This document shows positions 6,580 to 26,301 of a stretch of DNA of 64,000 nucleotides, piece by piece (position 1 is the stretch's first letter; the number at the start of each line of letters is the position of its first letter). The notes beneath the pieces were generated by a model that made no database searches, was not told the origin of the DNA, and was given only the letters and a program-made list of their open reading frames with translations. This stretch comes from Eggerthellaceae bacterium (lineage in GTDB: Bacteria > Actinomycetota > Coriobacteriia > Coriobacteriales > Eggerthellaceae). Made by a program: the position numbers and the translations under genes. The stretch lies in assembly GCA_022791455.1 (NCBI GenBank), contig JAAVZC010000010.1:1-64000 (forward strand). Direction: 5' to 3'.

Positions 6580-7272
6580 CTAGCGGTCAGCGCTCTCGTC
6601 GGTGCCCTCGACGAAGCGATAGCCGACGGAGCGGATGGTCTCGATGATGGAGGATGATCCCAGATGCGTCAGCTTCTTGCGCAGAAACGAGATATAGGCC
6701 TCCACGTTATTGTCGCCGGCGCTGGAATCGGGACCCCAGGCGCGGCCGATGAGCGCGTCCTTGGAAATGACGGCGCCCGGGGAGGCCATGAGAATGCGCG
6801 CGATGGCGTATTCCTTCTGGCTGAGACGAATGGTGGAATCGCCGCAGGTAAGGTCGAAGCTTTCCAGGTCCAGGGAGAGGTCGCCGGCCTTCAGCGTCTC
6901 GAACATCACGTCGCCCTGGCGGCGGGTGAGGGCACGCAGGTGCGCCATCAGCTCGGCCGGGGAGAAGGGCTTGGTCATGTAGTCGTCGGCTCCGGCATCG
7001 AGTCCTGTGATCTTATCCTGGGTGCCGTCGCGGGCCGTGAGCAGCAAGATGGGCGTGCTCACATGGGCGCGCCGCAGGCTTTGCGCCACGGTGAAACCGT
7101 CGGCCTTGGGCAGCATGACGTCCAGGATGATGACGTCGTAAATGCCCGACGATCCGTAATCGATGCCCGCCTGGCCGTCGTGGACCAAATCGACCCCATA
7201 GCCGTTGTCTTCCAGAATGCGGCCGAGCGCCTCGGCGAGGCGGACGTCGTCTTCTACTACCAGAACGCGCAT
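6580..7272 (-). CDS. OmpR/PhoB-family response regulator
   Basis: 230 residues: a receiver domain with the acidic pair in VVEDD, phosphoacceptor Asp at about 51 (ILDVMLP) and conserved Lys in TKPF, then a winged-helix output domain ending in VGYRF. ATG 7272 is supported by AAGGGGG five bases upstream; a longer in-frame extension has no ribosome site and adds residues not seen in the family. It is the first gene of the pair with the histidine kinase and diverges from the VTC-domain gene across a 150-bp promoter region. Confidence 0.94.
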   Translation of the reverse strand: MRVLVVEDDVRLAEALGRILEDNGYGVDLVHDGQAGIDYGSSGIYDVIILDVMLPKADGFTVAQSLRRAHVSTPILLLTARDGTQDKITGLDAGADDYMTKPFSPAELMAHLRALTRRQGDVMFETLKAGDLSLDLESFDLTCGDSTIRLSQKEYAIARILMASPGAVISKDALIGRAWGPDSSAGDNNVEAYISFLRKKLTHLGSSSIIETIRSVGYRFVEGTDESADR

Positions 7273-7422
7273 GGCGGCCCCCTTGGGTCCCGAAAGGCGG
7301 ATGTTTGCTGCGAGTTCCATTGTAGCGGCGCGGCTGAAAGCTCCCTGAAAAAATCCGCTGCTTCAGGCACTTTTCAGGATATCCCCGTAGGATTGCCTTC
7401 GCTTTGAGAGGAAGGAAAGAGC

Positions 7423-8430
7423 ATGGGCGGCTATCACAGCGTCTTCAAGCGCGTCGAGAAGAAGTATCGCATCGACCCCGCGCAGCGTCGGGCCGTCGAG
7501 GCGGCGGCTGCGGCGTGGATGGCCGTGGATGCCTACGGGCGCACGCGCATCACCAGTCTGTATTTGGACACACCCGATCGGGCGATGATTGCACGGTCGG
7601 TGGAGAAGCCTCTGTACAAGGAGAAGCTGCGCCTGCGTGCCTATGGCGAAGCAGCCGGGCTGGCGCTCATGGCTGCGTTCATGGTTGGCCCGATGGTGCG
7701 CTCGCTTGGGGAGCCGCCGCTTTCCGAAGCCGTGGTGGAAGCTCGGGCGCACGCTGGCTGCTCGGTGGCCGGCTTGGCCGATCCCTTGGCGGTGACGGTG
7801 TTCTTCGGCATTAAGAAGAAGTTCAAGGGCATTGTGTACAAGCGGCGCTTGGCCCTTTCGCTGCCGGCGGCGTTGGCCTTCGTCAGCGGCACGGCCTACG
7901 AAGTGGCCAGCACGCGCTGGCCTCTGGCCGATCCTGGGCAGGCTGCCGAGGCGCTCAATGCGCAGACGCGTCAGATTGCCCGCGAGCTGGAGGCGGCCAT
8001 GGGCCGCGTCACGCCGCTGGTGCCCTCCATGGGCATTGCCTGCGATCGCGAGGCCTGGGCCGTGCAGGAGATGTTGCCGACGGGAGGCGAGCTGGCGGCC
8101 AGTGTCGACAGCCCGGCCGACGCGCTGTTCGATCCCGAGCTGCGGCTCACCTTCGACGACCGACTGGAGTATTGGGATTGCTTCCGACCTCAGATGGGAT
8201 GGTGCCCCATTATCGCGCCCCGGGAGTCCATCCTCGAGATCAAAAGCGCCGGGCCCTACCCGCGCTGGTTGGTGACAGCGCTGTCGGCCCACGCCATCTA
8301 CCCCGCCTCCTTCACCAAATACGGCAACGCCTATCAGCTGAGCAAGAAGCAACGGCCAGTGCGGCGGGGTGCATCAAACCAACTGTTTTTGGCACCAGCA
8401 CTGAGAAAAGAGAGGATTCATTATGCTTGA
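7423..8430 (+). CDS. VTC-domain protein, probable polyphosphate polymerase
   Basis: A 335-residue soluble protein with the VTC/triphosphate-tunnel layout: EKKYRI near the N terminus (12-17), SLYLDT, KLRLRAYG with two tunnel arginines, KKKFKGIVYKRR with basic residues, and a late ILEIKS acidic strand. In yeast VTC4 this fold polymerises polyphosphate from ATP. The start follows GAGGAAGG. The stop overlaps the next gene by 8 bases (CATTATGCTTGA), so it is co-translated with a DUF4956 membrane protein. VTC plus DUF4956 is a recurring bacterial pairing. Activity is inferred from the family; no assay evidence exists here. Confidence 0.87.
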   Translation: MGGYHSVFKRVEKKYRIDPAQRRAVEAAAAAWMAVDAYGRTRITSLYLDTPDRAMIARSVEKPLYKEKLRLRAYGEAAGLALMAAFMVGPMVRSLGEPPLSEAVVEARAHAGCSVAGLADPLAVTVFFGIKKKFKGIVYKRRLALSLPAALAFVSGTAYEVASTRWPLADPGQAAEALNAQTRQIARELEAAMGRVTPLVPSMGIACDREAWAVQEMLPTGGELAASVDSPADALFDPELRLTFDDRLEYWDCFRPQMGWCPIIAPRESILEIKSAGPYPRWLVTALSAHAIYPASFTKYGNAYQLSKKQRPVRRGASNQLFLAPALRKERIHYA

Positions 8431-9118
8431 TGCTGCGTTTACGTCGGTTTTCGGCACGTCCGAGTCGCTGGTAGGGGCGGTCTCTACGGGCGGCTTCCTG
8501 GTCTGTTGCCTTTTCTCGGTGGTGCTGGGTGCCGCCTGCGCCGCCATCTACATGTTCCGCCACAATTACTCGAAGAACTTCGTGGTCACGCTGGCGCTGC
8601 TGCCCCTCATTGTGCAGATGGTCATCACCTTGGTGAACGGCAACTTGGGCGCGGGCATTGCGGTCATGGGCGTGTTCAACCTGGTGCGTTTCCGCTCCAT
8701 TCCCGGTTCGGCGAAGGACATCGGCAGTGTGTTTCTGGCTATGGCCATCGGCCTGGCCACGGGCATGGGCTTTCTGGTGCTGGCCTGCGTCTTCACCGTG
8801 GTGGTGGGCGTGGTGAACCTGCTGTTCGTGCTGACGCCCTTCGGCAAGCCGCGGGAGCCGGGCAAGACGCTGCGCATTACCATCCCCGAGGATCTGGAAT
8901 ACGACGGCGTGTTCGATGAGGTGCTCAATCGCTATGCAGCCGAGTCGGAGCTGACCGAGGTGACCACCACGAACATGGGCAGCCTCTTCCAGCTCACCTA
9001 TCAGCTGCGTCTGCGTCAGCCGGGGCTGGAGAAGGCCATGATCGACGAGCTGCGCTGCCTGAACGGGAACTTGAAGATTTCCCTGGGCATGACCCCGGCG
9101 GGGCGCGAGACGCTCTAG
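8423..9118 (+). CDS. DUF4956 membrane protein
   Basis: 231 residues with about four membrane helices in the first 140 residues (including NLVRFRSIPGSAKDI, a conserved-looking cytoplasmic loop) and a soluble C-terminal domain of about 85 residues with an alpha/beta pattern. It matches DUF4956, usually encoded beside VTC-domain proteins. The start overlaps the VTC stop and has AGAGAGGA upstream. Possible role: membrane partner or polyphosphate translocation channel for the VTC protein, by analogy with the membrane part of the yeast VTC complex; this is inference. Confidence 0.85.
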   Translation: MLDAAFTSVFGTSESLVGAVSTGGFLVCCLFSVVLGAACAAIYMFRHNYSKNFVVTLALLPLIVQMVITLVNGNLGAGIAVMGVFNLVRFRSIPGSAKDIGSVFLAMAIGLATGMGFLVLACVFTVVVGVVNLLFVLTPFGKPREPGKTLRITIPEDLEYDGVFDEVLNRYAAESELTEVTTTNMGSLFQLTYQLRLRQPGLEKAMIDELRCLNGNLKISLGMTPAGRETL

Positions 9119-9176
9119 CAGCCGCGGCTCGGCCGTTCGCCAACAACTTCAAAAAAAGAACGAGAGGGAGAGATCT

Positions 9177-11372
9177 ATGGTGCGAAGAAATATGAAACGA
9201 ATGACAGGACCGACACGCCGGGCGCTCTGGGCCCGCGGGGCGGTGGCCTCGGCCTTGGCGGCTACCTTGGCGCTGTCCGGCTGCACGGTTGCCGCGTACG
9301 ACAGCGATGATGCCGATACGGCGGCCTCGTCGACAGAAGGTGCGGCCACCAGCGAGGAAGAGGTAGATTGGGCCTCCCTCATTGATATTGCGGGTATGGA
9401 TTTCTCCTATTCCGATCGCGATAAGGACGCCACCTACGACGAAGCGTCGGCAACGAAGATTGCCTTGGCGGGACAGTCGGCCTCGGTGGAGGGCGACGGC
9501 GCCTCTGCTGAAGGCGCAACGGTCACCATCTCGGCGGCGGGCACCTATGTGCTTACCGGCGAGTTGTCTGCCGGTTCCGTGGTGGTGAACGCCTCCAAAG
9601 AAGACAAGGTGCAGCTGGTGCTCGACGGGGCCTCGATCCGTAATGAGACGGGGCCGGCGCTGAACATCCAGCAAGCGGACAAGGTGTTTGTCACGCTGGC
9701 GGCGGATACGCAGAACGCTCTGGCCGACGGTGCTTCCTATGCCCTGGAGGAAGGGGAGGACGAGCCCAACGCGGCACTCTACTCCAAGGACGATCTGACC
9801 ATCAACGGCACCGGCGCGCTCACCGTAGAGGGCAATTATCGTCATGGGGTGAATTCCAAGGACGACCTGGTCATCACCGGTGGCGCCGTAACGGTGACGG
9901 CGAAGGAGGATGCCCTGCTCGGCAAGGATTGCGTGAAGGTGGCTGACGGCTCCTTCGCTCTGACGGCCGGTGGCGACGGCGTGAAGTCCAGCAACGATGA
10001 GGATCCCACGCGGGGCTTTGTCAGCATCGACGGTGGTGCCTTTGCCGTCGAGGCGGGCGACGAGGGCTTCCAGGCGGCAACCTATCTGCGGCTTGCCGGA
10101 GGCGAGGCGCAGGTAAAGGCCGCCGATCACGCCCTGCGCTCGGATATCGAAGCAGCTCTGATCGACGGCGTCTATACTGTCGAGGCGGGCGGCAAGGGCA
10201 TGAATGCCGAAACGAAGTTCACCCAGGACGGCGGCGCACTGACTGTGACTGGGTGCGACGAGGGCATTGAGGCCCAAGAAGTGATCATCAACGATGGCGT
10301 GGTGGACATCACGGCCTCCGACGACGGCATCAACGCCGCCAAGGCCGAGCGTGCCTCCAACGACAACGAGACGGCGGAGACGGCGGGTGACGCGCAAGAT
10401 GCAACCGCCGCTTCGGGCACCAGCGATGGGGCTGGCACGGCCGACGGTGCAACTGGGAGCGGCGACGCGTCGGGCGCCGACGGCGATGCGCAGCGCACCG
10501 AGGGCCAGGACGGCCAAACCCCGCCCGAGTTGCCGGAAGGCGCACAGCCTGGCGAGGGCCAGACCCCGCCCGAGCTGCCCGAAGGCGTCGACCCCGGCCA
10601 GCGGCCTGAGGGCCAGGAGGGGCAGGCGCCCGAGCCTCCCGCGGGTCAGCAGGGCGAACGTCCTGAAATGCCCGAGGGTATGGAGCCCGGGCAGCGGCCC
10701 GAGGGGGACGGCCAGGGCGGCCCCGGCGGCATGCGAGGCGGTGCCGGCGGTCCCGTGGCCGATAACGCCAGCGAGCAGTGCCTCATTCAGATCAACGGCG
10801 GCTCGGTCTCCATCGATGCGGGCGGCGATGGTTTGGATTCCAACGGTTATGTGGAGGTGACGGGCGGCACCGTGCTGGCCAATGGCTCGGCTGGCGGTGG
10901 CGACAGCGCCCTGGACTACGAATACGGCGCCACCATCACGGGCGGCACCGTGCTGCTGGCGGGCTCGACGGGTATGGCCGAGACCTTCTCGGAGGGCAGC
11001 ACGCAGCCCTTCGCTTTGGTGGAAGTTGCGGGCTCGGCGAACAGCACGCTGGTTCTGACCGACGAGGCCGGCCAGGAGCTGGCGTCCTATACCGTGCCGA
11101 AGGCCTTCCAGTGCGTGGTGGTATCGGCGCCGGCGCTGACTGAAGGCGCCACGGGGGCGTTGACGGTGGATGGCGCCACAACGGACTTTACGGTGTCCAC
11201 CACGCCGACGGGCGGTATGGGAGCCATGGGCGGCCGCGGCGGCGGTCCCCATGGCGAACGTCCCGACGGGAATAGCGCTTCGGAAGCTAACGGCTCCCAA
11301 GACGGGACTTCGGAGGCGCCGCAGCAACGCGGCGCTGGGCAAGCGAGCCCGCAAGCTGAGGTGACGGCCTAG
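9177..11372 (+). CDS. Secreted beta-helix lipoprotein with Cthe_2159-like (DUF4353) carbohydrate-binding repeats
   Basis: 731 residues. A signal peptide ends in lipobox LSGC (Cys36). Residues 60-390 and 530-640 are built of short Asp/Gly-rich repeats such as KDDLTINGTGALTVEGN and GGDGLDSNGYVEVTGG, typical of right-handed beta-helix proteins and of the Cthe_2159-type polysaccharide-binding family. Between them lies a Pro/Glu/Gly-rich spacer. GAGGGAGAG precedes ATG 9177. Its position after VTC and DUF4956 suggests the three work together at the cell surface, perhaps binding acidic polymers through calcium. CotH is often found with VTC elsewhere, but no kinase motif was seen here. Confidence 0.82.
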   Translation: MVRRNMKRMTGPTRRALWARGAVASALAATLALSGCTVAAYDSDDADTAASSTEGAATSEEEVDWASLIDIAGMDFSYSDRDKDATYDEASATKIALAGQSASVEGDGASAEGATVTISAAGTYVLTGELSAGSVVVNASKEDKVQLVLDGASIRNETGPALNIQQADKVFVTLAADTQNALADGASYALEEGEDEPNAALYSKDDLTINGTGALTVEGNYRHGVNSKDDLVITGGAVTVTAKEDALLGKDCVKVADGSFALTAGGDGVKSSNDEDPTRGFVSIDGGAFAVEAGDEGFQAATYLRLAGGEAQVKAADHALRSDIEAALIDGVYTVEAGGKGMNAETKFTQDGGALTVTGCDEGIEAQEVIINDGVVDITASDDGINAAKAERASNDNETAETAGDAQDATAASGTSDGAGTADGATGSGDASGADGDAQRTEGQDGQTPPELPEGAQPGEGQTPPELPEGVDPGQRPEGQEGQAPEPPAGQQGERPEMPEGMEPGQRPEGDGQGGPGGMRGGAGGPVADNASEQCLIQINGGSVSIDAGGDGLDSNGYVEVTGGTVLANGSAGGGDSALDYEYGATITGGTVLLAGSTGMAETFSEGSTQPFALVEVAGSANSTLVLTDEAGQELASYTVPKAFQCVVVSAPALTEGATGALTVDGATTDFTVSTTPTGGMGAMGGRGGGPHGERPDGNSASEANGSQDGTSEAPQQRGAGQASPQAEVTA
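10500..10750 (+). repeat. Pro-Glu-Gly repeat tract inside the beta-helix lipoprotein
   Basis: The DNA encodes repeated units of the kind PPELPEG, PEMPEGMEPGQRPEG and QEGQ, four to six imperfect copies. It links the two beta-helix blocks and is a likely flexible spacer whose copy number may vary between strains. Confidence 0.8.
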
Positions 11373-11425
11373 AAACCGCCGGCCGTCATCGGGCAACAAG
11401 TGGGAAAAGAGCGGGAAGTTTGCGC

Positions 11426-11431
11426 TAGACT
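11426..11431 (+). promoter_or_regulatory. Candidate -10 element (TAGACT) upstream of the MFS gene
   Basis: GCTAGACTAG resembles other probable -10 boxes in this window, which share the form gcTAnnaTg. No convincing -35 was seen. It lies upstream of the hairpin at 11454, which would place that hairpin inside the MFS leader. Confidence 0.45.
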
Positions 11432-11453
11432 AGTGCATTGCAGAACGCGGTTA

Positions 11454-11499
11454 CGGCCCTGGGGCGCAGTAATATCTACGCTGCCCGGGGCCGTTTTTT
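11454..11499 (+). terminator. Terminator hairpin in the lipoprotein-MFS gap; possible attenuator
   Basis: CGGCCCTGGGGCGCAG pairs imperfectly with CTGCCCGGGGCCG (11481-11493), followed by six T (11494-11499). It may end the beta-helix lipoprotein transcript, or, because a candidate -10 lies before it, act as an attenuator in front of the exporter gene. Confidence 0.75.
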
Positions 11500-11546
11500 G
11501 TGCACGAGGTCCCTGGAAACTGACGATTTTACGGGAAAGGGCTCTC

Positions 11547-12965
11547 ATGCAATCGGATGCTTCTTCGGCCTCGCGCGGTTCATCGCTGACGGCGCTGCTG
11601 GGCGTCTTCTATGCCTGCGGCTTTCTGGCGGGCTTCAACGAAAATTTGGTGAACATGGCGCTCGTGGCCATTATGGGTGCGTTCAGCGTCGATGCGGTTA
11701 CGGCCCAATGGCTGGTCACCGGCTATATGATTGCCGTCACGGTGGTGGTGACGTGTATGGCCTACTTGTACCGCCGTTTCTCCATGCGTGCGCTGTTTCT
11801 GACGGCCTCGCTGCTGAGCATGGCGGGGTCGCTGGGCGGTCTGGTGGCTCCCAACTTTGCCGTACTCATGATAGGCCGCCTGGTCCAGGCCGCGGGTACC
11901 GGTGTTTTCATTCCCCTTATGATGAATGTCATTGTCGATAAGGTGCCCCATCAGAATATGGGCACCTATCTGGCCGTAGGCAGCTGCATGATCACGCTGG
12001 GGCCCGCCACGGCGCCCATTGTGACGGGCTTTCTCGTTAGCGACTGGGGGTGGCGCAGCGTGTTCGTCGTGCCTCTTGCGGCAGCGGCCCTGCTCCTTGT
12101 GGCGGGTTTCGTGGTGGTGCGCGATGATCGTCCTGGCCAGCGCAAGGCTCTCGATGGTCTCTCGGTACTGCTGACGGCGCTGGGCGTCACCCTGCTTTCT
12201 TGGGGCTTGTCGGAGTTGACGCTGCGCCCTGTGGCTGGCATGGCGGCTTTGGCCGCCGCGGTGGGGGTGCTGGCGCTTTTTGCGTGGCGGCAGCAGCGCC
12301 TCGCGTCTCCCTTGGTGAGCATGGCCCCCTTCGGTCAGCGCTCGTTTTGGCCGGCGGCTCTGCTGGTGGTGATCACCATGATGACCTACTTCTCGCTCAG
12401 CGTGCTGGCGCCGCTGTACTTCGAGGAAGCGGCGGGTCTGACCGCCTCGCTGGCAGGCCTGCTCATGGTGGCGCCGGTGCTGGCCAATGCCACGGCGTCG
12501 CTGGTGTCGGGGCGCGTCCTTGATCGCAAAGGGGAGTGGCCGCTTCTGCCTGCCGGACTGCTGGTGGCGGTCGTGGGTCTGCTGGCGGCTTTGGGCGGTG
12601 CCGTCCAGCAAAGCGTTGCCATGGTGACGGTGGGGCTCTTCTTCGGCTATCTGGGCACGGGCATGGTGCTGTCGCCGGCGCAAACGGCGGGGCTGCGCCG
12701 TCTTCCCGACGAGCTTGACTCCCATGGCGTGTCGCTTATGAGCATGGCCGTGCAGCTGGCCGCCTGCTTGGGGCCGGCGGCCTACGTGGGCGTGATGAGC
12801 TCGGCGGCCGCCCGGGCCGCGGCGGGCGGTGCGGCGGGGGGAGCGGCTTCGGCCACGGGCTTTGCCTGGGCCATGGGGGCGGCTCTCGTGGTGGCCGTGG
12901 CAGGATTGGTGCTGGCCGCCATCTATGCTCGGGCTATGCGCTCCCTGCCCGCGGCGGGACGGTAG
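11547..12965 (+). CDS. MFS drug:H+ antiporter (DHA2/EmrB-like)
   Basis: 472 residues with many hydrophobic segments (12-14 helices). Recognisable features are an N-terminal MALVAIMGAF..TAQWLVTGYM segment, GRLVQAAGTG and a G-rich motif-C-like segment (GPATAPIVTGFL), as in EmrB/QacA-type exporters. ATG 11547 is chosen because the upstream extension is unlike the family and overlaps the terminator hairpin; a weak GGGAAAGG precedes it. No accessory EmrA gene is present. The substrate is unknown; export of toxic small molecules is the usual role. Confidence 0.87.
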   Translation: MQSDASSASRGSSLTALLGVFYACGFLAGFNENLVNMALVAIMGAFSVDAVTAQWLVTGYMIAVTVVVTCMAYLYRRFSMRALFLTASLLSMAGSLGGLVAPNFAVLMIGRLVQAAGTGVFIPLMMNVIVDKVPHQNMGTYLAVGSCMITLGPATAPIVTGFLVSDWGWRSVFVVPLAAAALLLVAGFVVVRDDRPGQRKALDGLSVLLTALGVTLLSWGLSELTLRPVAGMAALAAAVGVLALFAWRQQRLASPLVSMAPFGQRSFWPAALLVVITMMTYFSLSVLAPLYFEEAAGLTASLAGLLMVAPVLANATASLVSGRVLDRKGEWPLLPAGLLVAVVGLLAALGGAVQQSVAMVTVGLFFGYLGTGMVLSPAQTAGLRRLPDELDSHGVSLMSMAVQLAACLGPAAYVGVMSSAAARAAAGGAAGGAASATGFAWAMGAALVVAVAGLVLAAIYARAMRSLPAAGR

Positions 12966-13025
12966 CGCGCTGGCCGCTTTGGCCGCTTCGCCTGAACCGT
13001 GCTCCACTGCTTTACTTGGATGGAG

Positions 13026-13031
13026 TACAAT
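13026..13031 (+). promoter_or_regulatory. Probable -10 (TACAAT) of the TrpR-like gene
   Basis: GAGTACAATGG lies 80 bases before the TrpR-like start codon, giving a leader of about 70 bases. No clear -35. Confidence 0.5.
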
Positions 13032-13110
13032 GGCGTTATCGACGAAGAGAACGGGGCTTGTGTGCCGGCGCTCGGGCGCTCACGCGGCTCCGTAAGAGAG
13101 GAACTGCTCC

Positions 13111-13419
13111 ATGGCTGATATTCGCACCTCCGACGTGGACGACTTGCTGACGGTGCTTGCCACCCTCGACGACCCGGACACCATCTTCGCGCTCTTGGAG
13201 GATCTGTTCACGGTGCGTGAGATTCGTGAAACGTCCCAGCGTCTGCTGGTGGCGCGCATGTTGGCGGCGGGGAAGTCCTATGCGGCCATCGAGGCAGAAA
13301 CGGGAGCCTCGGCTACCACCATTGCCCGCGTATCGAAATGCCTGAGCTATGGCGCGGGAGGCTATGCGAAGGCCCTTGAGGTGCTGCAAGATCAGGGGGA
13401 GGGTGTCCCCGTCAGCTAA
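13111..13419 (+). CDS. YerC/YecD-family TrpR-like regulator
   Basis: A 102-residue, all-helical protein. The central part (FTVREIRETSQRLLVARML) and helix-turn-helix AAIEAETGASATTIARVSKCL, ending in a YGAGGY segment, match the YerC/YecD group related to the Trp repressor. These are small DNA-binding proteins, generally of unknown ligand. The start has AGAGGAA about eight bases upstream. It stands alone, with its own probable promoter and a large noncoding gap after it, so its targets cannot be read from context. Confidence 0.88.
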   Translation: MADIRTSDVDDLLTVLATLDDPDTIFALLEDLFTVREIRETSQRLLVARMLAAGKSYAAIEAETGASATTIARVSKCLSYGAGGYAKALEVLQDQGEGVPVS

Positions 13420-13462
13420 GAGCGCTGTCGAAAGCACTTTCGGCGAAGTCCATAAAAAGAAA

Positions 13463-13491
13463 CAGGGAGGCGGCTTCAAGCCGCCTCCCTG
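13463..13491. terminator. 12-bp perfect hairpin after the TrpR-like gene
   Basis: CAGGGAGGCGGC (13463-13474) and GCCGCCTCCCTG (13480-13491) with a TTCAA loop. The T-rich flank (TTTCTTTTT) is on the minus strand, although no minus-strand gene lies to the right; on the plus strand it still follows the TrpR-like gene and may act with factor help. Confidence 0.65.
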
Positions 13492-13498
13492 GGGTTCG

Positions 13499-13559
13499 AG
13501 AACGGATTGGGGAGATCCGATTCTCGCGAGAATCGGGGAATGTGGGGAACCCGATTCTC
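13499..13559. promoter_or_regulatory. Array of GATTCTC/GAGAATC inverted repeats
   Basis: Three overlapping inverted arrangements occur: GAGAA..GGAT against ATCCGATTCTC, a 20-bp perfect palindrome CCGATTCTCGCGAGAATCGG (13517-13536), and GAGAATCGGG (13528-13537) against CCCGATTCTC (13550-13559). They are mutually exclusive if folded as RNA, and could equally be operators for a dimeric protein. A purine-only tract follows (about 13560-13594). Confidence 0.6.
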
Positions 13560-13735
13560 AAAAAGAGAGAAGAAGGAAAGGAAAGAGGAAAAGGTTTTCT
13601 TTTCCGTTTCGCTGATTGCAGTATAGGAAGTTTTTCGGCGGGGGAGAATAGCCTGGAGCCGTTGGTTACCCGCGTGTAAAGAATCCTGCACTTTTCTGTG
13701 ACTTATGGAGAAAATGTAAACCATGGTTAACCCTA

Positions 13736-13764
13736 TTGCCTCTGGGATATAGTTAACTTAATAT
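13736..13764 (+). promoter_or_regulatory. Sigma70-type promoter for the candidate sRNA
   Basis: TTGCCT (13736-13741) and TAATAT (13759-13764) are separated by exactly 17 bases within an AT-rich stretch unusual for this genome. Transcription would start near 13771. Confidence 0.6.
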
Positions 13765-13770
13765 AACTTT

Positions 13771-13935
13771 CGTCGCAAGGGACGAAGAACTTCAACGAAC
13801 CCCCTTCAAGAAGGATCTTCAGACCGACGACATCCTCCTCTCTTCTTGTTTTACTGGGTGGCGAAGCTTCTCCTCGTCTCGCTGTCGCCACAAAACGAAA
13901 CCCGCAGGATTCCCCTCCCTGCGGGTTTTCGTATT
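13771..13935 (+). ncRNA. Candidate UC-rich small regulatory RNA
   Basis: A stretch of about 165 bases between a 17-bp-spaced promoter and a strong terminator, with no supported ORF (the only long frames run through the terminator). It shows a 5' hairpin TTCGTC/GACGAA (13769-13786), a hairpin GTGGCGA/TCGCCAC (13858-13891) and the terminator stem. Single-stranded or loop parts are UC-rich and resemble anti-Shine-Dalgarno sequence: CCCCCTTC, CATCCTCCTCTCTTC, CTTCTCCTCGTCTC and ATTCCCCT. Such loops are typical of trans-acting sRNAs that block ribosome binding. It is not recognisable as 4.5S, 6S, tmRNA or RNase P. Function is inference. Confidence 0.6.
13897..13931. terminator. Bidirectional intrinsic terminator at the end of the sRNA candidate
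   Basis: CGAAACCCGCAGG pairs with CCTGCGGGTTTTCG across ATTCCCCT; T-rich on the plus strand and A-rich before it, so usable in both directions. Confidence 0.85.
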
Positions 13936-14204
13936 TCTAGGGTCTCTTCCGTATTTCATGAGTTTCCTGCTCTCCATTTCGCCTTGTTGACGCGGCGTTT
14001 TCAACGGAAACAAAGCTATGGCACCGATTTTACGAAGGCTGGTTCGGCTCTCTTTTCCTCGGTTTCGCAGTCATCATTGAGCTAGCAGGTCAAAAGGTCG
14101 TCGTCGCCCGTGCACAGCGACGCATACGCCTCGTGCGCCTTACGCGAAAGAGTCGCAGGCGCCGGACCTCACCACATAGCGAACGTTGAGGAATGGAGAT
14201 AGTC

Positions 14205-15056
14205 ATGAAGTTACGCAATTTGGGGTGGATGGCGGTGTGCGGCTTGTTTGCCGTGAGCCTGGCAGGTTGCTCTGCGGCAACAACCGATCAGGGTCAGACG
14301 TCAGGCGATCAGGCTCAAGCGACGCAGCAAGCTGCCGACCAGCAATCTAATGGTCAGACCCAGGAGCAAGTAGAGCAAGCCTCAGCGAAGGCCGACGAGG
14401 CCACGGCCAAGCAAGAAGCGTCCGATCCGGCTGATCTGCAGATTGTCGACTCGGGTTGGTTCGTGTCTGACAATGGCATGGTCGATTTTGCCGTCGAGGT
14501 TCAGAATCCCAATCAGACGGTTGAAGCCGTTGACCCGGTCATCGAGGTTGTGGGCAAGGACGATGCGGGCAACGTGCTGTTCGACGAGAAAATCGAGACC
14601 CCGAGCGTTCTGCCGAACTCTACCTACTACTATTCCTATGTGGCAGGTATGACGGCCCAGAACGGCGCCACGGACGAGGAAACGGTCAAGCCGGCTACGG
14701 TCGACTTCTCCGTGACCACCCCCGAGGGATCCTGGGAAGCCACTGATGAGACGCTGGCCAATGTGTACACCGTGCAGGATAACGGTGCCAAGGACAGCGA
14801 GTTCGGTGCCAAGGAATTCACGGGCACGGTAACGGCTTCCAAGGCCCTGGACGAGGCAACCCAGTCCCGTGTGGATGTGGTGCTTCTGGACAAGGACGGC
14901 AAGATCGAGGGCGGCTACTTCAAGATTGTCGATACCGAGCCGGGCAAGGCGGCCGATTACGATATCTTCGCCATCGATGCTCCCGATTACGCCAGCTATG
15001 CGGTGTACGCGAGCCCCTGGAACGACGCCGAGGATTCTGACGCTTCGAGCAAGTAG
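14205..15056 (+). CDS. Lipoprotein of unknown function
   Basis: 283 residues. Signal peptide with lipobox LAGC, then a Gln/Ala/Asp-rich linker (about 25-80) and two beta-rich domains. The first (LQIVDSGWFVSDNGMVDFAVEVQNPN) has the look of FxLYD-type extracellular domains, in which a conserved strand is followed by comparison of partner ions or modifications; this resemblance is tentative. ATG 14205 is preferred to ATG 14193 because GGAG sits six bases before it, while the upstream ATG touches GAGGA directly. No neighbour suggests a pathway. A 13-bp terminator hairpin follows. Confidence 0.82.
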   Translation: MKLRNLGWMAVCGLFAVSLAGCSAATTDQGQTSGDQAQATQQAADQQSNGQTQEQVEQASAKADEATAKQEASDPADLQIVDSGWFVSDNGMVDFAVEVQNPNQTVEAVDPVIEVVGKDDAGNVLFDEKIETPSVLPNSTYYYSYVAGMTAQNGATDEETVKPATVDFSVTTPEGSWEATDETLANVYTVQDNGAKDSEFGAKEFTGTVTASKALDEATQSRVDVVLLDKDGKIEGGYFKIVDTEPGKAADYDIFAIDAPDYASYAVYASPWNDAEDSDASSK

Positions 15057-15085
15057 CACGCGGCGCAACAAACTGCGCTTTATAG

Positions 15086-15114
15086 GGAAGGCCCCTGATG
15101 ATCAGGGGCCTTCC
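15086..15114 (+). terminator. Terminator of the lipoprotein gene
   Basis: GGAAGGCCCCTGA (15086-15098) pairs perfectly with TCAGGGGCCTTCC (15102-15114); a weak T-rich tail follows. Confidence 0.8.
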
Positions 15115-15172
15115 TTGGGTTTTCGGGCGCCGCGGGCACCCGATGCTGTACCGAGAGGCGAGGCGCTAGGCG

Positions 15173-16600
15173 CTAGGCGCGCAGGAACGCCTCGTAGCCG
15201 CGACGAGCCTCGTAGATGTCGGCCTTGCTGGTTACCTCCCAGGGGGAGTGCATGGAGAGTACCGGCACACCGGAGTCGATGACGTCCATGCCGTATTTCG
15301 CCGGGATATAGGCGATGGTGCCGCCGCCGCCCGCGTCCACGCGCCCCAGCTCGGCGGTTTGGAAGCTGACGCCGGCGTCGTCCATGATGCGGCGCACCTG
15401 GGCCACGTACTCGGCCGAAGCGTCGTTGGAGCCGCTTTTGCCGCGGGCGCCCGTGTACTTGTTGAACACCAGGCCGCGCCCGAGGAAAGCAGAGTTTTTC
15501 GCCTCGAAGACGCTGGCATAGGCCGGGTCGAAGCCGGCGGACACGTCCGAGGACAGCATGCGCGAGCGGGCCAGGGCGCGGCGCAGGGGCAGGGTGCCAC
15601 CCTCGCCGGCCAGTTCCATGATCTCAGCAATGGTGTTCTCGAAGAAGAGCGAGCCCATGCCTGTAGCGCCCACGGAGCCGATCTCCTCCTTGTCCACGAG
15701 CACGCAGACGGCGGCACGGGTGGGCACGTCGTCGCCCAAGGCCAGCTGGGCCACCAGTGAAGTGTAGGCGCAGACGCGGTCGTCCTGGCCGTAGCCGATG
15801 ACCATGGAGCGATCAAGTCCCAGGTCGCGGGCGCGTCCGGCGGGAACTACTTCCAGCTCTGCGGACAGGAAGTCCTCCTCGGCAATGCCGTACTTGTCGG
15901 CCAGCACCGAGAGGACCATGCGCTTCACCGGGTCCTTGGCGGCGTCTTTGCTTGCGTCCTTGTCTGCTTCGCCCGAGGCATCCTCGGCCAGCACGAGCGG
16001 ACGGTTGCCTATCAGGATGTCCAGGTCCTCGCCCTCCACCACTTTCGCGCCCGTCTTCTCCATTTGCTGGGCGCCCAGGTGGGGCAGCAGGTCGGTCACG
16101 CAGAATACCGGGTCGGCCGGGTCGTCGCCGATATTCACCTCGATGACCGTGCCGTCGGTGGTGGCCACCACGCCGTGGAGCGCCAGGGGCAGCGCCGCCC
16201 ACTGGTAGTTCTTGATGCCGCCGTAGTAATGGGTGTCCAGCAGGGCGAAATCGTTCGTCTCGTACAGGGGGTTCTGCTTGATGTCCAGGCGCGGCGAATC
16301 GATATGGGCGCCCAGAATGTTGAGGCCCGCGGACAGGGGCTCGCTGCCCACGTGCACCAGGATGACGGCCTTGCCCTGGGCGCAGGCCCACAGCTTGCTG
16401 CCCGAGCCCACGGGGGCGCCGGCTGCCATGGCGTCGGCCAAGGGCTCGTAGCCCGCGGCCTCGGCGGCGGCGATGGCCGCCGTGGCGCATTCGCGCTCGG
16501 TTTTGTTCAGCGAGATGAAATCAATGTAGTCGGCCGCCAGGGCCTCAAGGGAGGCCAGGGCGTCTTCGTCGTACTTCTTCCACGCTACTTCGCGTTCCAT
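15173..16600 (-). CDS. M18-family aminopeptidase
   Basis: 475 residues. M18 hallmarks are GAHIDSPRLDIKQNPLYE (first metal His/Asp), DKEEIGSVGATG (catalytic and metal acidic residues), AGFDPAYASVFEAKNSAFLGRG and SMHSPWEVTSKADIYEA (last metal His). These dinuclear zinc enzymes remove N-terminal, often acidic, residues from peptides in the cytoplasm. ATG 16600 is supported by AGAAGG eight bases upstream and by family length; the in-frame extension to 16804 is not credible. An acidic/lysine insert around residues 220-240 is a surface loop. It is monocistronic. Confidence 0.92.
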   Translation of the reverse strand: MEREVAWKKYDEDALASLEALAADYIDFISLNKTERECATAAIAAAEAAGYEPLADAMAAGAPVGSGSKLWACAQGKAVILVHVGSEPLSAGLNILGAHIDSPRLDIKQNPLYETNDFALLDTHYYGGIKNYQWAALPLALHGVVATTDGTVIEVNIGDDPADPVFCVTDLLPHLGAQQMEKTGAKVVEGEDLDILIGNRPLVLAEDASGEADKDASKDAAKDPVKRMVLSVLADKYGIAEEDFLSAELEVVPAGRARDLGLDRSMVIGYGQDDRVCAYTSLVAQLALGDDVPTRAAVCVLVDKEEIGSVGATGMGSLFFENTIAEIMELAGEGGTLPLRRALARSRMLSSDVSAGFDPAYASVFEAKNSAFLGRGLVFNKYTGARGKSGSNDASAEYVAQVRRIMDDAGVSFQTAELGRVDAGGGGTIAYIPAKYGMDVIDSGVPVLSMHSPWEVTSKADIYEARRGYEAFLRA

Positions 16601-16633
16601 AGCACCTTCTTTCGACGATGTTTGCTTGGCCCC

Positions 16634-16639
16634 AGTATG
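16634..16639 (-). promoter_or_regulatory. Possible -10 (CATACT) for the aminopeptidase gene
   Basis: Read on the minus strand, GTCATACTGGG lies about 35 bases before the start codon. The rest of the 392-bp gap up to the rubrerythrin gene shows no supported ORF. Confidence 0.4.
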
Positions 16640-16933
16640 ACGCAAAAGACGGCGAAAGGGGAGCGCGTGTCGCGGGTACGTGATGGTTCGGAGGAGGAAG
16701 CGGGCTGCGATTGAGCCGCGATGGGCACTGGACACAAAATGGCGGCTGATCGGGGTGAGGGGCCGAGGGCCGCGAAGAGGGGAGGACGAGCAACGGCTTC
16801 GCAACGTTCGGCTCCGCGCCCGCAGCGAATCACCTGCGACGGTTCCATAATAGAGAGCGGTTCGGGGCTCCTGGGGATTTGTTTCGTCTCTGCGAAGAGT
16901 GAACTTTTCTCAGCGCGTCTCTGTGAGCCAAGC

Positions 16934-16939
16934 TATAAT
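16934..16939 (+). promoter_or_regulatory. Perfect -10 (TATAAT) of the rubrerythrin gene
   Basis: GCTATAATGACC is 54 bases before the start codon; the -35 is poor. Confidence 0.7.
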
Positions 16940-16992
16940 GACCAAGGTTATATACCGCCTGCGAAGGCAAAGACGAGGCAAAGGAGCAATCC

Positions 16993-17601
16993 ATGAATCT
17001 TCGCGATGTTATTCCTACCGCTGAAAACTCCACCAACTTCAACGTGGTTCCCGAGTCCATCACCGAGGTGGGCACCACGCTCGACAATCTGAAGGCTGCC
17101 GTTATGGGCGAGACCGGCGCATCTGCCAAGTACGCCGCGTGCGCTCTGGCCGCCAAGGCTCAGGGCTACGATCAGATTGCCCGCCTGTTCGAGGCCACCA
17201 GCGCCGCCGAGCAGATCCACATCGGCCTTGAGGCCGGCGTCATCCAGTCCGTCGAGCCCGACTACGAGCGTCCCGCCGCTCCCGATGCCGAGGGCATTGC
17301 TACGGACCTGAACCTCATCGCCGGCGCCCTGGGCGAGATCTACGAGACCTCCGACATGTACCCCAGCTTCATCAAGGTGGCTCAGGAGGAGGGCGACAAG
17401 AAGGCCGAGTTCGTGTTCACCCGCGCCAAGCTGGCCGAGGCCGTGCATGCCGAGCTGTACATGGACGCCTACAACAACATCGACTGCCCGGACAACGACG
17501 CCTACTACCTGTGCCCCATCTGCGGCTACATCCACAAGGGCGACGACTTCGAGAAGTGCCCCATCTGCTTCACCCCGCGCGACAAGTTCCGCGAGTTCTA
17601 A
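16993..17601 (+). CDS. Rubrerythrin with C-terminal rubredoxin domain
   Basis: 202 residues. A four-helix ferritin-like domain with diiron carboxylates (GETGASAKY, EATSAAEQIH, YETSDMYPSF, AEAVHAELY) is followed by a rubredoxin knuckle pair, CPICGYIH and CPICFTPR. Rubrerythrins reduce hydrogen peroxide to water in anaerobes, using electrons through the rubredoxin iron. AAAGGAG precedes the ATG. It has its own promoter and terminator. Strong expression is suggested by the TATAAT box and very regular, GC-ending codons. Confidence 0.94.
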   Translation: MNLRDVIPTAENSTNFNVVPESITEVGTTLDNLKAAVMGETGASAKYAACALAAKAQGYDQIARLFEATSAAEQIHIGLEAGVIQSVEPDYERPAAPDAEGIATDLNLIAGALGEIYETSDMYPSFIKVAQEEGDKKAEFVFTRAKLAEAVHAELYMDAYNNIDCPDNDAYYLCPICGYIHKGDDFEKCPICFTPRDKFREF

Positions 17602-17630
17602 TCGGCAACGGAAACCAAGCGTTCCCAACA

Positions 17631-17657
17631 ACGGCCGCCCCTCGGGGCGGCCGTTTT
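17631..17657 (+). terminator. Rubrerythrin terminator
   Basis: ACGGCCGCCC / GGGCGGCCGT with a CTCG loop and TTTT. Confidence 0.9.
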
Positions 17658-17712
17658 GCGTCTAAGACCTGGGGTTGGCTGCCCCGGTTGTCTCATCGCT
17701 GGCCGTCCCTAT

Positions 17713-18606
17713 TTAGCGGCTGAGCGCTGCGGGCAGGTGCTTCTTCACCACCTCGATGAACAGCTGAGCGGCGGGGGTGAGCCAGGTGGTTTTGCGGTAG
17801 GCCAGCAGTACGGGAAAGGCGAGATCGTCAGAAGGGGAAGGGGCGGTTTGGAGCTGTCCCGCGGCCAACTCGTCGACCACGGCGAAGCGCGGGGCAATGG
17901 TGAAGCCCATCCCCAGGGTGACCAGGCGGCGAATGGCGTGGGTGGTCCACAGCTCCATAGTGTCGGCCAGGTCGATGCCGCGTTCAGCCAGGGATCGCTC
18001 GAATCCAATACGAAACACGCTGTCGGGCTCGTCGATGATGAAGGGCATCGTGACCGAATGGCCGGAGGTCTGGAGATCGGGAGGAGCCACCGTTGTTGCG
18101 ACGACGGCCACGGTGCTTACGTGAGCGATGGTCTCTACAACCATGTCGTCGGGGCGCCAATCGACGGCATAGAGCAGCGAAAGGTCGCATTCCGCGTGGG
18201 GAAGGGTGCGCGATATTTGGGCCAGCGAGCCGTCGCGCAGGCGCAGACGCACGCCGGGCGCCCGTTCGCGAAACTCCGAGATCACCTCGTTCATGGCGTA
18301 GCACAGAAGGCTCTCGGCCACATCGACGCGCAGCTCTCCGGAAAGCTCGCCCTCGGCGGCTGCCAAAGACCCCAAGCGGTCGACGGCGGCAATGATGTCT
18401 GCGGCCTGGGTCAGGGCCTCCGCGCCCTTCTGAGTGAGCACCATGCGCCGCCCGACGCGCTCGAAAAGGGGAATGCCCAGGTCTCGTTCGAGCTGCTTGA
18501 TGTGCACGGTGACGGTGGACTGCGTATAGCCCAGATGCTCGGCGGCTCGGGCATAGGTGCCGCACTGGACGACGGCTTGGAAGGTACGCAGGCATTTAAT
18601 GTCCAT
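17713..18606 (-). CDS. LysR-family regulator, divergent from a LysE exporter
   Basis: 297 residues: N-terminal winged helix (AAEHLGYTQSTVTVHIKQLE) and a periplasmic-binding-like effector domain. It diverges from a LysE-type exporter across an AT-rich 138-bp gap; such pairs (ArgP-ArgO or LysG-LysE style) usually have the regulator turn on the exporter when its amino-acid substrate accumulates. The ligand here cannot be deduced. The start ATG 18606 fits the usual LysR N terminus. Confidence 0.9.
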   Translation of the reverse strand: MDIKCLRTFQAVVQCGTYARAAEHLGYTQSTVTVHIKQLERDLGIPLFERVGRRMVLTQKGAEALTQAADIIAAVDRLGSLAAAEGELSGELRVDVAESLLCYAMNEVISEFRERAPGVRLRLRDGSLAQISRTLPHAECDLSLLYAVDWRPDDMVVETIAHVSTVAVVATTVAPPDLQTSGHSVTMPFIIDEPDSVFRIGFERSLAERGIDLADTMELWTTHAIRRLVTLGMGFTIAPRFAVVDELAAGQLQTAPSPSDDLAFPVLLAYRKTTWLTPAAQLFIEVVKKHLPAALSR

Positions 18607-18744
18607 AGGGCTCCAATGTTCGAATTATCGAAACAATATTATCAAAACTATTCGTTATACAAATGGATTCGTTTCGGCCATGATAGGGGTCGAGAAGGGT
18701 CGCCAATGCGAACGACCCGTGATTCCCTACGAGAAGAGGATGCC
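18607..18744. promoter_or_regulatory. Divergent LysR/LysE control region
   Basis: The sequence around 18618-18665 is strongly AT-rich (for example ATTATCGAAACAATATTATC) and contains partial dyads with the TnA pattern expected for LysR boxes, serving both divergent genes. Confidence 0.5.
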
Positions 18745-19353
18745 ATGACCTCCGCGCTGCTTGCCGCCATGCCCGCCTTTTTGGCGTACACCTTTGTCCA
18801 GGCCATCACGCCCGGGCCGGCCAATCTGTGCTCCATGGCCACGGCATTGCGTCTGGGCTTGCGGCCGGCGCTGCGGCAATGGGTGGGCCTGACCTTGGGG
18901 CTCTTCCTGGTGATAGCGGCGGCCTTGGCGGTGCTCTACGGAGCCGCGAACGCCATTGACAGCCTGCTGCCGGTGCTCACGGTGGTCGGAGCTGCCTATG
19001 TGCTGTGGCTTGCCTGGTCCATGGTGCGTCCCAGCGATGGCCACGGTGGCTTTGCGAACGTGCGCCCCACCATCGGCGCTGGGGTAGTTCTGCAGGTGAC
19101 GAATGCGAAGGTGCTCGTCATGTCCTGCACGGCGCTGGTGGCCTACGTCATTCCCTATGCCGAAAACGTGCCGGCGTTGCTGGGCGCATCCCTGGTGCTT
19201 CCCGTGGCCGGAGCGCTGTGCAATCTTGTGTGGATCTACGGAGGCGTGAAGCTCCAGTCGTTCTACGAAGCCCATCAGCGCCCCATCGATGCGCTCATGG
19301 CCGCTACGCTGGCATTGTGCGCCGGAGGCATGCTCATCTCGCTGATAGGCTAG
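18745..19353 (+). CDS. LysE-family amino-acid or metabolite exporter
   Basis: 202 residues, about six membrane helices. The N-terminal TPGPANLCSMATALRLGLRPAL is the LysE/RhtB signature. The family exports amino acids or related small molecules by proton antiport. ATG 18745 follows AGAAGAGGA; the much longer in-frame ORF upstream runs through the divergent LysR gene and is not real. Regulation by the divergent LysR protein is likely. Confidence 0.9.
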   Translation: MTSALLAAMPAFLAYTFVQAITPGPANLCSMATALRLGLRPALRQWVGLTLGLFLVIAAALAVLYGAANAIDSLLPVLTVVGAAYVLWLAWSMVRPSDGHGGFANVRPTIGAGVVLQVTNAKVLVMSCTALVAYVIPYAENVPALLGASLVLPVAGALCNLVWIYGGVKLQSFYEAHQRPIDALMAATLALCAGGMLISLIG

Positions 19354-19366
19354 GGGCTCTCCTTAG

Positions 19367-19436
19367 GATGAGACGGTTGGCCGTCTCATCCAGTTGCATC
19401 AAATGAGACAAGTCAGACGGTTGGCCGTCTCATTTT
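19367..19436. repeat. Double palindrome of the ATGAGACGGTTGG type; bidirectional terminator
   Basis: First hairpin: GATGAGACGG (19367-19376), TTGG loop, CCGTCTCATC (19381-19390). Second: ATGAGAC..GTCTCAT spanning 19403-19433, with TTTT after it. It lies between convergent lysE-like and tetR-like genes. A 29-base segment of the second copy (19403-19431) recurs in inverted orientation with one mismatch at 26351-26379, on the far side of the OYE/SDR cassette. Confidence 0.8.
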
Positions 19437-25525: not shown

Positions 25526-25545
25526 TTTAAGAGAGGAGAATTCCC

Positions 25546-26301
25546 ATGAAGCTCACTAAGCAGGAATGGCAGGATCTGAACAACCGTCTGGTAATGGCGC
25601 TGCGCCCCCTCACCAACCCGGTGGCCATCAAGATGATCGACTCGCCCGAGGGCTTCGAGGAGTACGGCGACCTGAAGATGGCCACCAACCCCTCCACGGG
25701 CTGCCAGATCATCGGCATCGCCGCCCACTTCCATATGACTATCGGCATCAAGCCGGAGAAATTCCTCACCACCTACTGCGGCGCCAACTGCGGCTGCTGC
25801 GAGCGCGATGAGGAGTGGCACGACGGCGTGCTGCTGGCCAACCCGCCCTACCCCTGGCACGGCAACCAGGACGCCTCCCGTGCCCATATGGAAAGCTATC
25901 TGGACACGCTGCCCGAGAAGCCCTATGCCGGCATGGTGGCCTCGCCGCTCGACGACAACGACATCGCCGAGCCCGACTGCATCTCGGTGCAGATTCAGGC
26001 TTCTGGGGCCTTCCATCTGCTGGCCGGCCTGATCGAGGCCGACTTCCAGTACCTGGAGTTCCCCTTCCGCGGCGAGTCCCAGTGCGTCGACACCTGGATG
26101 CGCACCATCAAGACCGGCAAGCCCGGCCTGTCCTTGGGTTGCCGCGGTGACCGCGCCCTGGGCAACCTACAGTCCGGCGAGGTGCGCGTGACGCTCACCT
26201 GCGAGCAGTTCGTGAAGGCCATCGAGGGCGTTGAGAATCTCATCAACCGCGGAGTGGACTACCCGTACTTCGCTCCCATCATGCTGCCCGACAACGTGTA
26301 G
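25546..26301 (+). CDS. DUF169-family protein of the OYE/SDR cassette
   Basis: 251 residues, soluble. The N-terminal NPVAIKMI..PEGFEEYG and internal ACTGCQ-like NPSTGCQIIGIA with a CGANCGCCE cysteine group, and the late CLSLGCRGDR-type GLSLGCRGDRALG, fit the DUF169 family. The Cys-rich patch (C82-C88 region) could bind a metal or cluster. DUF169 proteins are common next to OYE- and SDR-type genes in anaerobes, but have no assigned reaction. RBS GAGAGGAG is strong. It is the last gene before the inverted repeat at 26335, so it closes the TetR-controlled unit. Confidence 0.82.
   Translation: MKLTKQEWQDLNNRLVMALRPLTNPVAIKMIDSPEGFEEYGDLKMATNPSTGCQIIGIAAHFHMTIGIKPEKFLTTYCGANCGCCERDEEWHDGVLLANPPYPWHGNQDASRAHMESYLDTLPEKPYAGMVASPLDDNDIAEPDCISVQIQASGAFHLLAGLIEADFQYLEFPFRGESQCVDTWMRTIKTGKPGLSLGCRGDRALGNLQSGEVRVTLTCEQFVKAIEGVENLINRGVDYPYFAPIMLPDNV

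Follow-up and report, generated by a model that had tools for sequence, protein, structure and literature searches.

The locus lies in a 64,000-nt stretch of an Eggerthellaceae contig (the window) and comprises an sRNA of about 165 nt encoded on the forward strand at 13771..13935, with its start placed from the −10 element and its end from the terminator, in a yerC/lipoprotein gene context. The candidate promoter consists of the −35 hexamer TTGCCT (13736-13741; TTGACN in many homologues), a 17-nt spacer and the −10 hexamer TAATAT (13759-13764; TAnnnT is kept in homologues), all on the forward strand, and it was not listed by a strict consensus scan of the window because its −35 is weak. An operator-like box, GTTAACTTAATATAAC (GTTA-N8-TAAC; 13752..13767), overlaps the spacer and the −10 hexamer. 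The predicted transcript carries a first pyrimidine tract, CCCCCTT, within AACCCCCTT at 13798, and a second, CATCCTCCTCTCTTC, at 13831, where the unpaired segment CATCCTCCTCTCTT (13831..13844), which could act against Shine-Dalgarno (SD) sequences and is not part of the helices conserved in alignment A5, also begins. It is followed by hairpin 2 (13858..13891; stem GTGGCGAAGC/GCTGTCGCCAC, 10 of 10 pairs covarying), the loop of which, TTCTCCTCGTCTC (13868-13880), holds the third tract, CTTCTCCTCGTCTC, and by an intrinsic terminator hairpin (13898..13928; stem 13898-13908/13918-13928, 11 of 11 pairs covarying) with a C-rich loop, ATTCCCCTC (13909-13917), that includes the tract CCCCT, and a U-rich tail. 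Both the promoter with 17-bp spacing and the terminator had been proposed in an initial annotation of this DNA, and both were found where it had put them.

Judged from the single window sequence, the excess of anti-SD motifs is modest: CCTCC/CTCCT occurs four times compared with 1.2 times in dinucleotide shuffles, 5% of which reach four, and 0.9% of nearby 165-nt stretches attain the same count. The RNA folds better than all of 200 shuffles (z −3.1). The conserved hairpin 2 is absent from the minimum-energy fold of the window sequence taken alone and is present in the comparative structure.

A DNA search with the window RNA returned homologues in three other genera (genomes G007, G006 and G015). 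R1, a covariance model built from three homologous sequences, had matches in 58 of the 138 Eggerthellaceae genomes, spread over 24 of 48 genera; its best E-values reached 1e-26, and a single genome could hold as many as three copies. A refined model, R2, built from 30 sequences, gave hits in 75 of the order's 397 genomes: 73 belong to Eggerthellaceae, and the other two, outside the family, were matched weakly. All 21 base pairs have changed on both sides in the 30-sequence alignment, where 98.3% of paired cells are complementary, against 70.8% in shuffles and 37-45% with the partner slid; because this alignment was fitted to the model, the counts are biased in favour of the structure, yet the contrast remains large. 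Mean pairwise identity is 0.67 and 0.53 in the stem columns and 0.82 and 0.78 in the loop columns, the values for hairpin 2 being 0.67 for its stem and 0.82 for its loop. The loop motif CUCGUCU is found in 64 of 71 model matches and the terminator loop CCCCY (CCCC[CT]) in 63 of 71. The initial annotation had foretold that a covariance search in other Eggerthellaceae would show hairpins whose stems vary while their UC loops are kept, and the family bears this out. Its four UC tracts all exist in the window, but they are unequal in the homologues: the 5′-most CCCCCTT is not generally conserved and the leading CUCCUC/CCUCCU-type motif of the unpaired segment occurs in only 41 of 71 matches, so that most of the signal comes from the two loops that are conserved.

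An RNA on the minus strand was rejected, as the minus strand folds slightly less well against its own shuffles (z −2.5) and the G–U cells outnumber the A–C cells (15 versus 5), which favours the plus strand. A coding gene was likewise rejected: no ORF is shared among the first 30 homologues, in keeping with the ORF-free stretch of about 165 bases originally described. The model matches, the covarying pairs and the lack of a common ORF indicate that the window element is real, and a conserved, structured non-coding RNA family with its own promoter is well supported in Eggerthellaceae. That the feature is instead a functionless product of chance in a pyrimidine-rich intergenic region would fit the moderate motif excess of the single sequence but is hardly credible given the family-wide covariation and the conservation of promoter and loops.

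Rfam 15 gave no match at gathering level for the window RNA, and a check of 20 homologous loci gave none besides a tRNA. Assignment to a known Rfam family was therefore rejected, ar14, P37 and CcsR1 being weak or architectural resemblances below gathering level. The best match, ar14 (RF02344; 42.3 bits, E 2.6e-6), fell short of the gathering score of 58.8 bits in the window RNA and in the 20 homologous loci. The alphaproteobacterial ar14/NfeR1 RNAs resemble the present family in having differing stems with conserved anti-SD motifs in unpaired parts. However, ar14 has three hairpins, each with an identical CCUCCUCCC, whereas the present RNA combines two conserved hairpins, looped by CUCGUCU and by CCCCY, with a single unpaired segment; the Eggerthellaceae loops differ from each other, the phylum is another, and NfeR1 responds to nitrogen status (PMC10746234). 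By the tests made, the RNA is not a member of ar14. Since the loops resemble a generic anti-SD sequence and are nearly identical across genera, they might be thought to bind a protein or the ribosome, by imitating the anti-SD tail of 16S rRNA or acting as a sponge, rather than particular mRNAs. We consider this very improbable: conservation extends past the anti-SD core, into CUCGUCU and the linker that precedes hairpin 2, and characterized RNAs with such loops (NfeR1/ar14, IsrR and FsrA) pair with mRNA (PMC10746234, PMC9410917).

The upstream regions are conserved along with the RNA. In 60 distinct homologous upstream regions, each retaining at least 12 of the 16 fixed positions of the box, a promoter of the form TTGAC/TTGC-17-TAnnnT is overlapped by AGTTAnCnTAnnnTAAC, with TGTC after the box near the start point. 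As the promoter had played no part in finding the RNAs, its conservation constitutes independent support. A matrix trained on the sRNA promoters was then applied to the 200-nt regions preceding feoA in 29 genomes: the median best score was 15.2, compared with −4.4 for shuffled sequences, and 22 of the 29 regions exceeded the 99% shuffle level, as did one of 127 upstream regions of other genes. The box at both kinds of promoter is thus an operator-like site common to the sRNA and feoA, and a promoter site held in common with iron-uptake genes, one mark of an iron-sparing sRNA, is present here as GTTA-N8-TAAC. Seven loci (L045, L121, L122, L133, L139, L140 and L159) hold copies with a variant promoter box, TGTTAGCTTAATnTAACTTnCATCG, and are possibly a second subfamily in multi-copy genomes. 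A weaker box was also noted in G000, the assembly to which the window belongs, at approximately 455.5-457.2 kb of G000:C5 (L225, L226, L256, L257), between genes for an AraC-type regulator and a small FeoA-like protein, with another box-like site close by, ahead of L256.

The RNA family is also linked to feo by position, and this link is well supported. In 23 of 70 copies the RNA, in most cases just after feoB, is followed 51-343 nt downstream by a DtxR-family repressor gene on the same strand, FeoB-region matches are upstream of the RNA in 18 loci and downstream in three, and the common order is feoA-feoB-Cys-rich-RNA-dtxR. This arrangement raises the possibility that the RNA is a cis-acting leader or attenuator of dtxR, its terminator controlling read-through into the repressor gene, but such a role is improbable and is contradicted by the varied contexts in which the RNA occurs. 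The Adlercreutzia RNA does not adjoin feo, and the next gene after the window RNA is the lipoprotein gene, 258 nt on; the g31 copies precede feoAB, many other copies have neither feo nor dtxR nearby, and at L161 the Cys-rich gene is immediately followed by dtxR, with no RNA between them. Several genomes have two or three copies; G096, for example, has one at G096:C1:2736222-2736325, 225 nt upstream of feoAB, and another at G096:C1:727572-727677. In G001 and G002, which carry the same genus label as G000, feoA is present and the RNA was not detected. The contexts seen (yerC/lipoprotein, feo-dtxR, feoAB and others) show no tie to one downstream gene and, being unrelated, speak for action in trans more than for a leader function. 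The initial annotation had suggested a trans-acting regulator with anti-SD loops, which would pair with mRNAs and affect their translation; this view gains from the conserved loops on covarying stems as well as from these contexts. The iron connection, comprising the feo operon, the DtxR-family gene and the common operator-like box, goes beyond that annotation and points to the signal that the RNA probably answers and to its probable purpose.

The DtxR-family homologue on contig 12 of G000 exceeds the Pfam cut-offs for both domains, Fe_dep_repress (PF01325; 30.0 bits, cut-off 26) and Fe_dep_repr_C (PF02742; 57.3 bits, cut-off 27), and from its gene position and protein family we infer that it binds the box. 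Its nearest NCBIfam model is MntR, at 84 bits and under the cut-off of 153, so that the metal sensed could be manganese rather than iron. Another possibility is therefore that the RNA is a trans-acting anti-SD sRNA under a different signal, outside any iron-sparing response, whether manganese or a regulator at the imperfect palindrome GTAAACCATGGTTAAC (13716..13731). The palindrome forms part of a conserved block (TGTGGAGAAATTGTAAACCATGGTTAAC-like) ahead of the promoter, recurs in most homologous upstream regions and is probably a second regulator site; the targets considered below are, in addition, only weakly enriched. We nevertheless regard this possibility as unlikely, as the DtxR-family gene sits within an operon for ferrous iron uptake and the box recurs at feoA promoters.

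We propose, as the probable reading, that the RNA is a DtxR-controlled, trans-acting sRNA which is induced by iron starvation and blocks the SD sites of iron enzymes. The DtxR-family repressor encoded in the feo operon, when loaded with Fe(II), would bind the GTTA-N8-TAAC box over the −10 element and, while iron is plentiful, keep the RNA off; when iron is scarce, repression of the RNA and of feoAB would be lifted together. The RNA would then expose two or three pyrimidine segments, CCUCCUCUCUU, CUCCUCGUCU and CCCCCU, able to pair with purine-rich SD sites and so block translation of mRNAs for dispensable iron-rich enzymes, probably including molybdopterin Fe–S oxidoreductases.

Predicted targets were sought in seven other genomes with the RNA as genes with the SD complement AGAGAGGAG before the ATG, with a permuted SD, GGAAAGGAG, as control. 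Molybdopterin oxidoreductases made up 14 of 49 such genes, compared with 4 of 55 for the control (Fisher p 0.004), and iron proteins, counted from Pfam tallies and inspection of sequences, 18 of 49 compared with 8 of 55 (p 0.008). The numbers are small, and paralogous enzymes are not independent and may share leaders, which makes the enrichment weak. Moreover, the other contigs of G000, probably from another genus and with no RNA detected, gave a similar share (5 of 11 iron proteins, three of them Mo enzymes), and the RNA may therefore not be the cause of the enrichment. For molybdopterin Fe–S enzymes it is only suggestive. In the window itself, the SD/start region AAGAGAGGAGAATTCCCATG (25529..25548, forward strand) of a DUF169 gene (25546-26301) is a predicted target site, with a perfect 10-nt complement of CUCCUCUCUU. 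The loop-2 complement, GACGAGGAG, was dropped as a target signal: its 37 matches in G000, against 27 for the reversed pattern, lie mostly inside genes and are uninformative.

Target counts from the RNA's own assembly were set aside because the initial 31.8 kb of the window and the remainder of G000 seem to derive from different organisms. In the stretches compared, positions 1-31758 of the window share 95-97% identity with Adlercreutzia equolifaciens DFI.6.87, and positions 7111-19416 are 99.99% identical to the metagenome-assembled genome MGBC131384; past about 31758, the rest of the window and G000 show mostly 65-89% identity, with scattered matches of 65-83% to A. equolifaciens. From this drop in identity, contig 15 of G000 appears to be a chimera or a recombinant, with the break near 31.8 kb. 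The feo operon, which is on contig 12, may then belong to another organism, and searches of G000 may concern another genus. The RNA falls well within the Adlercreutzia portion of the window, and the family-wide evidence is independent of the contig 15 problem.

We class the RNA as a new family within a known type, the iron-linked anti-SD sRNAs, with putative DtxR-type control and feo linkage as its own features. FsrA of Bacillus subtilis is iron-repressed and iron-sparing and binds SDs via a C-rich motif (PMC9410917); the Eggerthellaceae RNA appears alike in its C-rich, potentially SD-pairing motif and its inferred iron-sparing control, but FsrA is Fur-controlled and works with FbpABC, and the window RNA has no Rfam match to it. 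IsrR of Staphylococcus aureus has several C-rich regions, acts by SD occlusion and has among its targets a Mo-dependent formate dehydrogenase and nitrate reductase (PMC9410917), which recalls the predicted targets here, rich in molybdopterin Fe–S enzymes. IsrR, however, is Fur-controlled with no feo/dtxR linkage described, and no test made gave any relationship. The iron-sparing MrsI of Mycobacterium tuberculosis is, like the present RNA, actinobacterial, and its promoter has a site for IdeR, a DtxR-family repressor; it acts through a six-nucleotide seed and is not known to have an anti-SD loop array (PMC8628891). The actinobacterial 6C RNA (B11), with conserved cytosines in two stem-loops (PMC8628891), is similar in origin and in its cytosine-bearing stem-loops; the window RNA gave no Rfam match to it at E up to 5.

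Eggerthellaceae depend on large sets of Fe–S and molybdopterin enzymes to transform drugs and dietary compounds. In the literature searched, we found no description of an iron-responsive sRNA in Coriobacteriia. If the proposed mechanism is correct, a single RNA coupling translation of these enzymes to iron would offer a direct handle on drug and dietary-compound metabolism, and the iron-sparing solution of FsrA, IsrR, MrsI and RyhB would have arisen independently in Eggerthellaceae. More speculatively, and with considerable doubt, the RNA family may be limited to Eggerthellaceae, either belong to the feo-dtxR operon or descend from it, and serve as the iron-sparing regulator of this lineage, setting translation of its many molybdopterin Fe–S oxidoreductases and haem proteins; xenobiotic metabolism in the gut, with the transformation of drugs, hormones and dietary compounds by these enzymes, would in that case be governed by iron supply through one RNA.

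Some further features were noted in the window before the sRNA. An intergenic block after yerC (13600-13627), CTTTTCCGTTTCGCTGATTGCAGTATAG, is conserved in several Adlercreutzia loci. A stretch downstream of yerC (13436-13604) gave a sub-threshold match to the Rfam family Collinsella-1 (21.5 bits, gathering 35), and inside it lies a strong inverted repeat (13463-13491).
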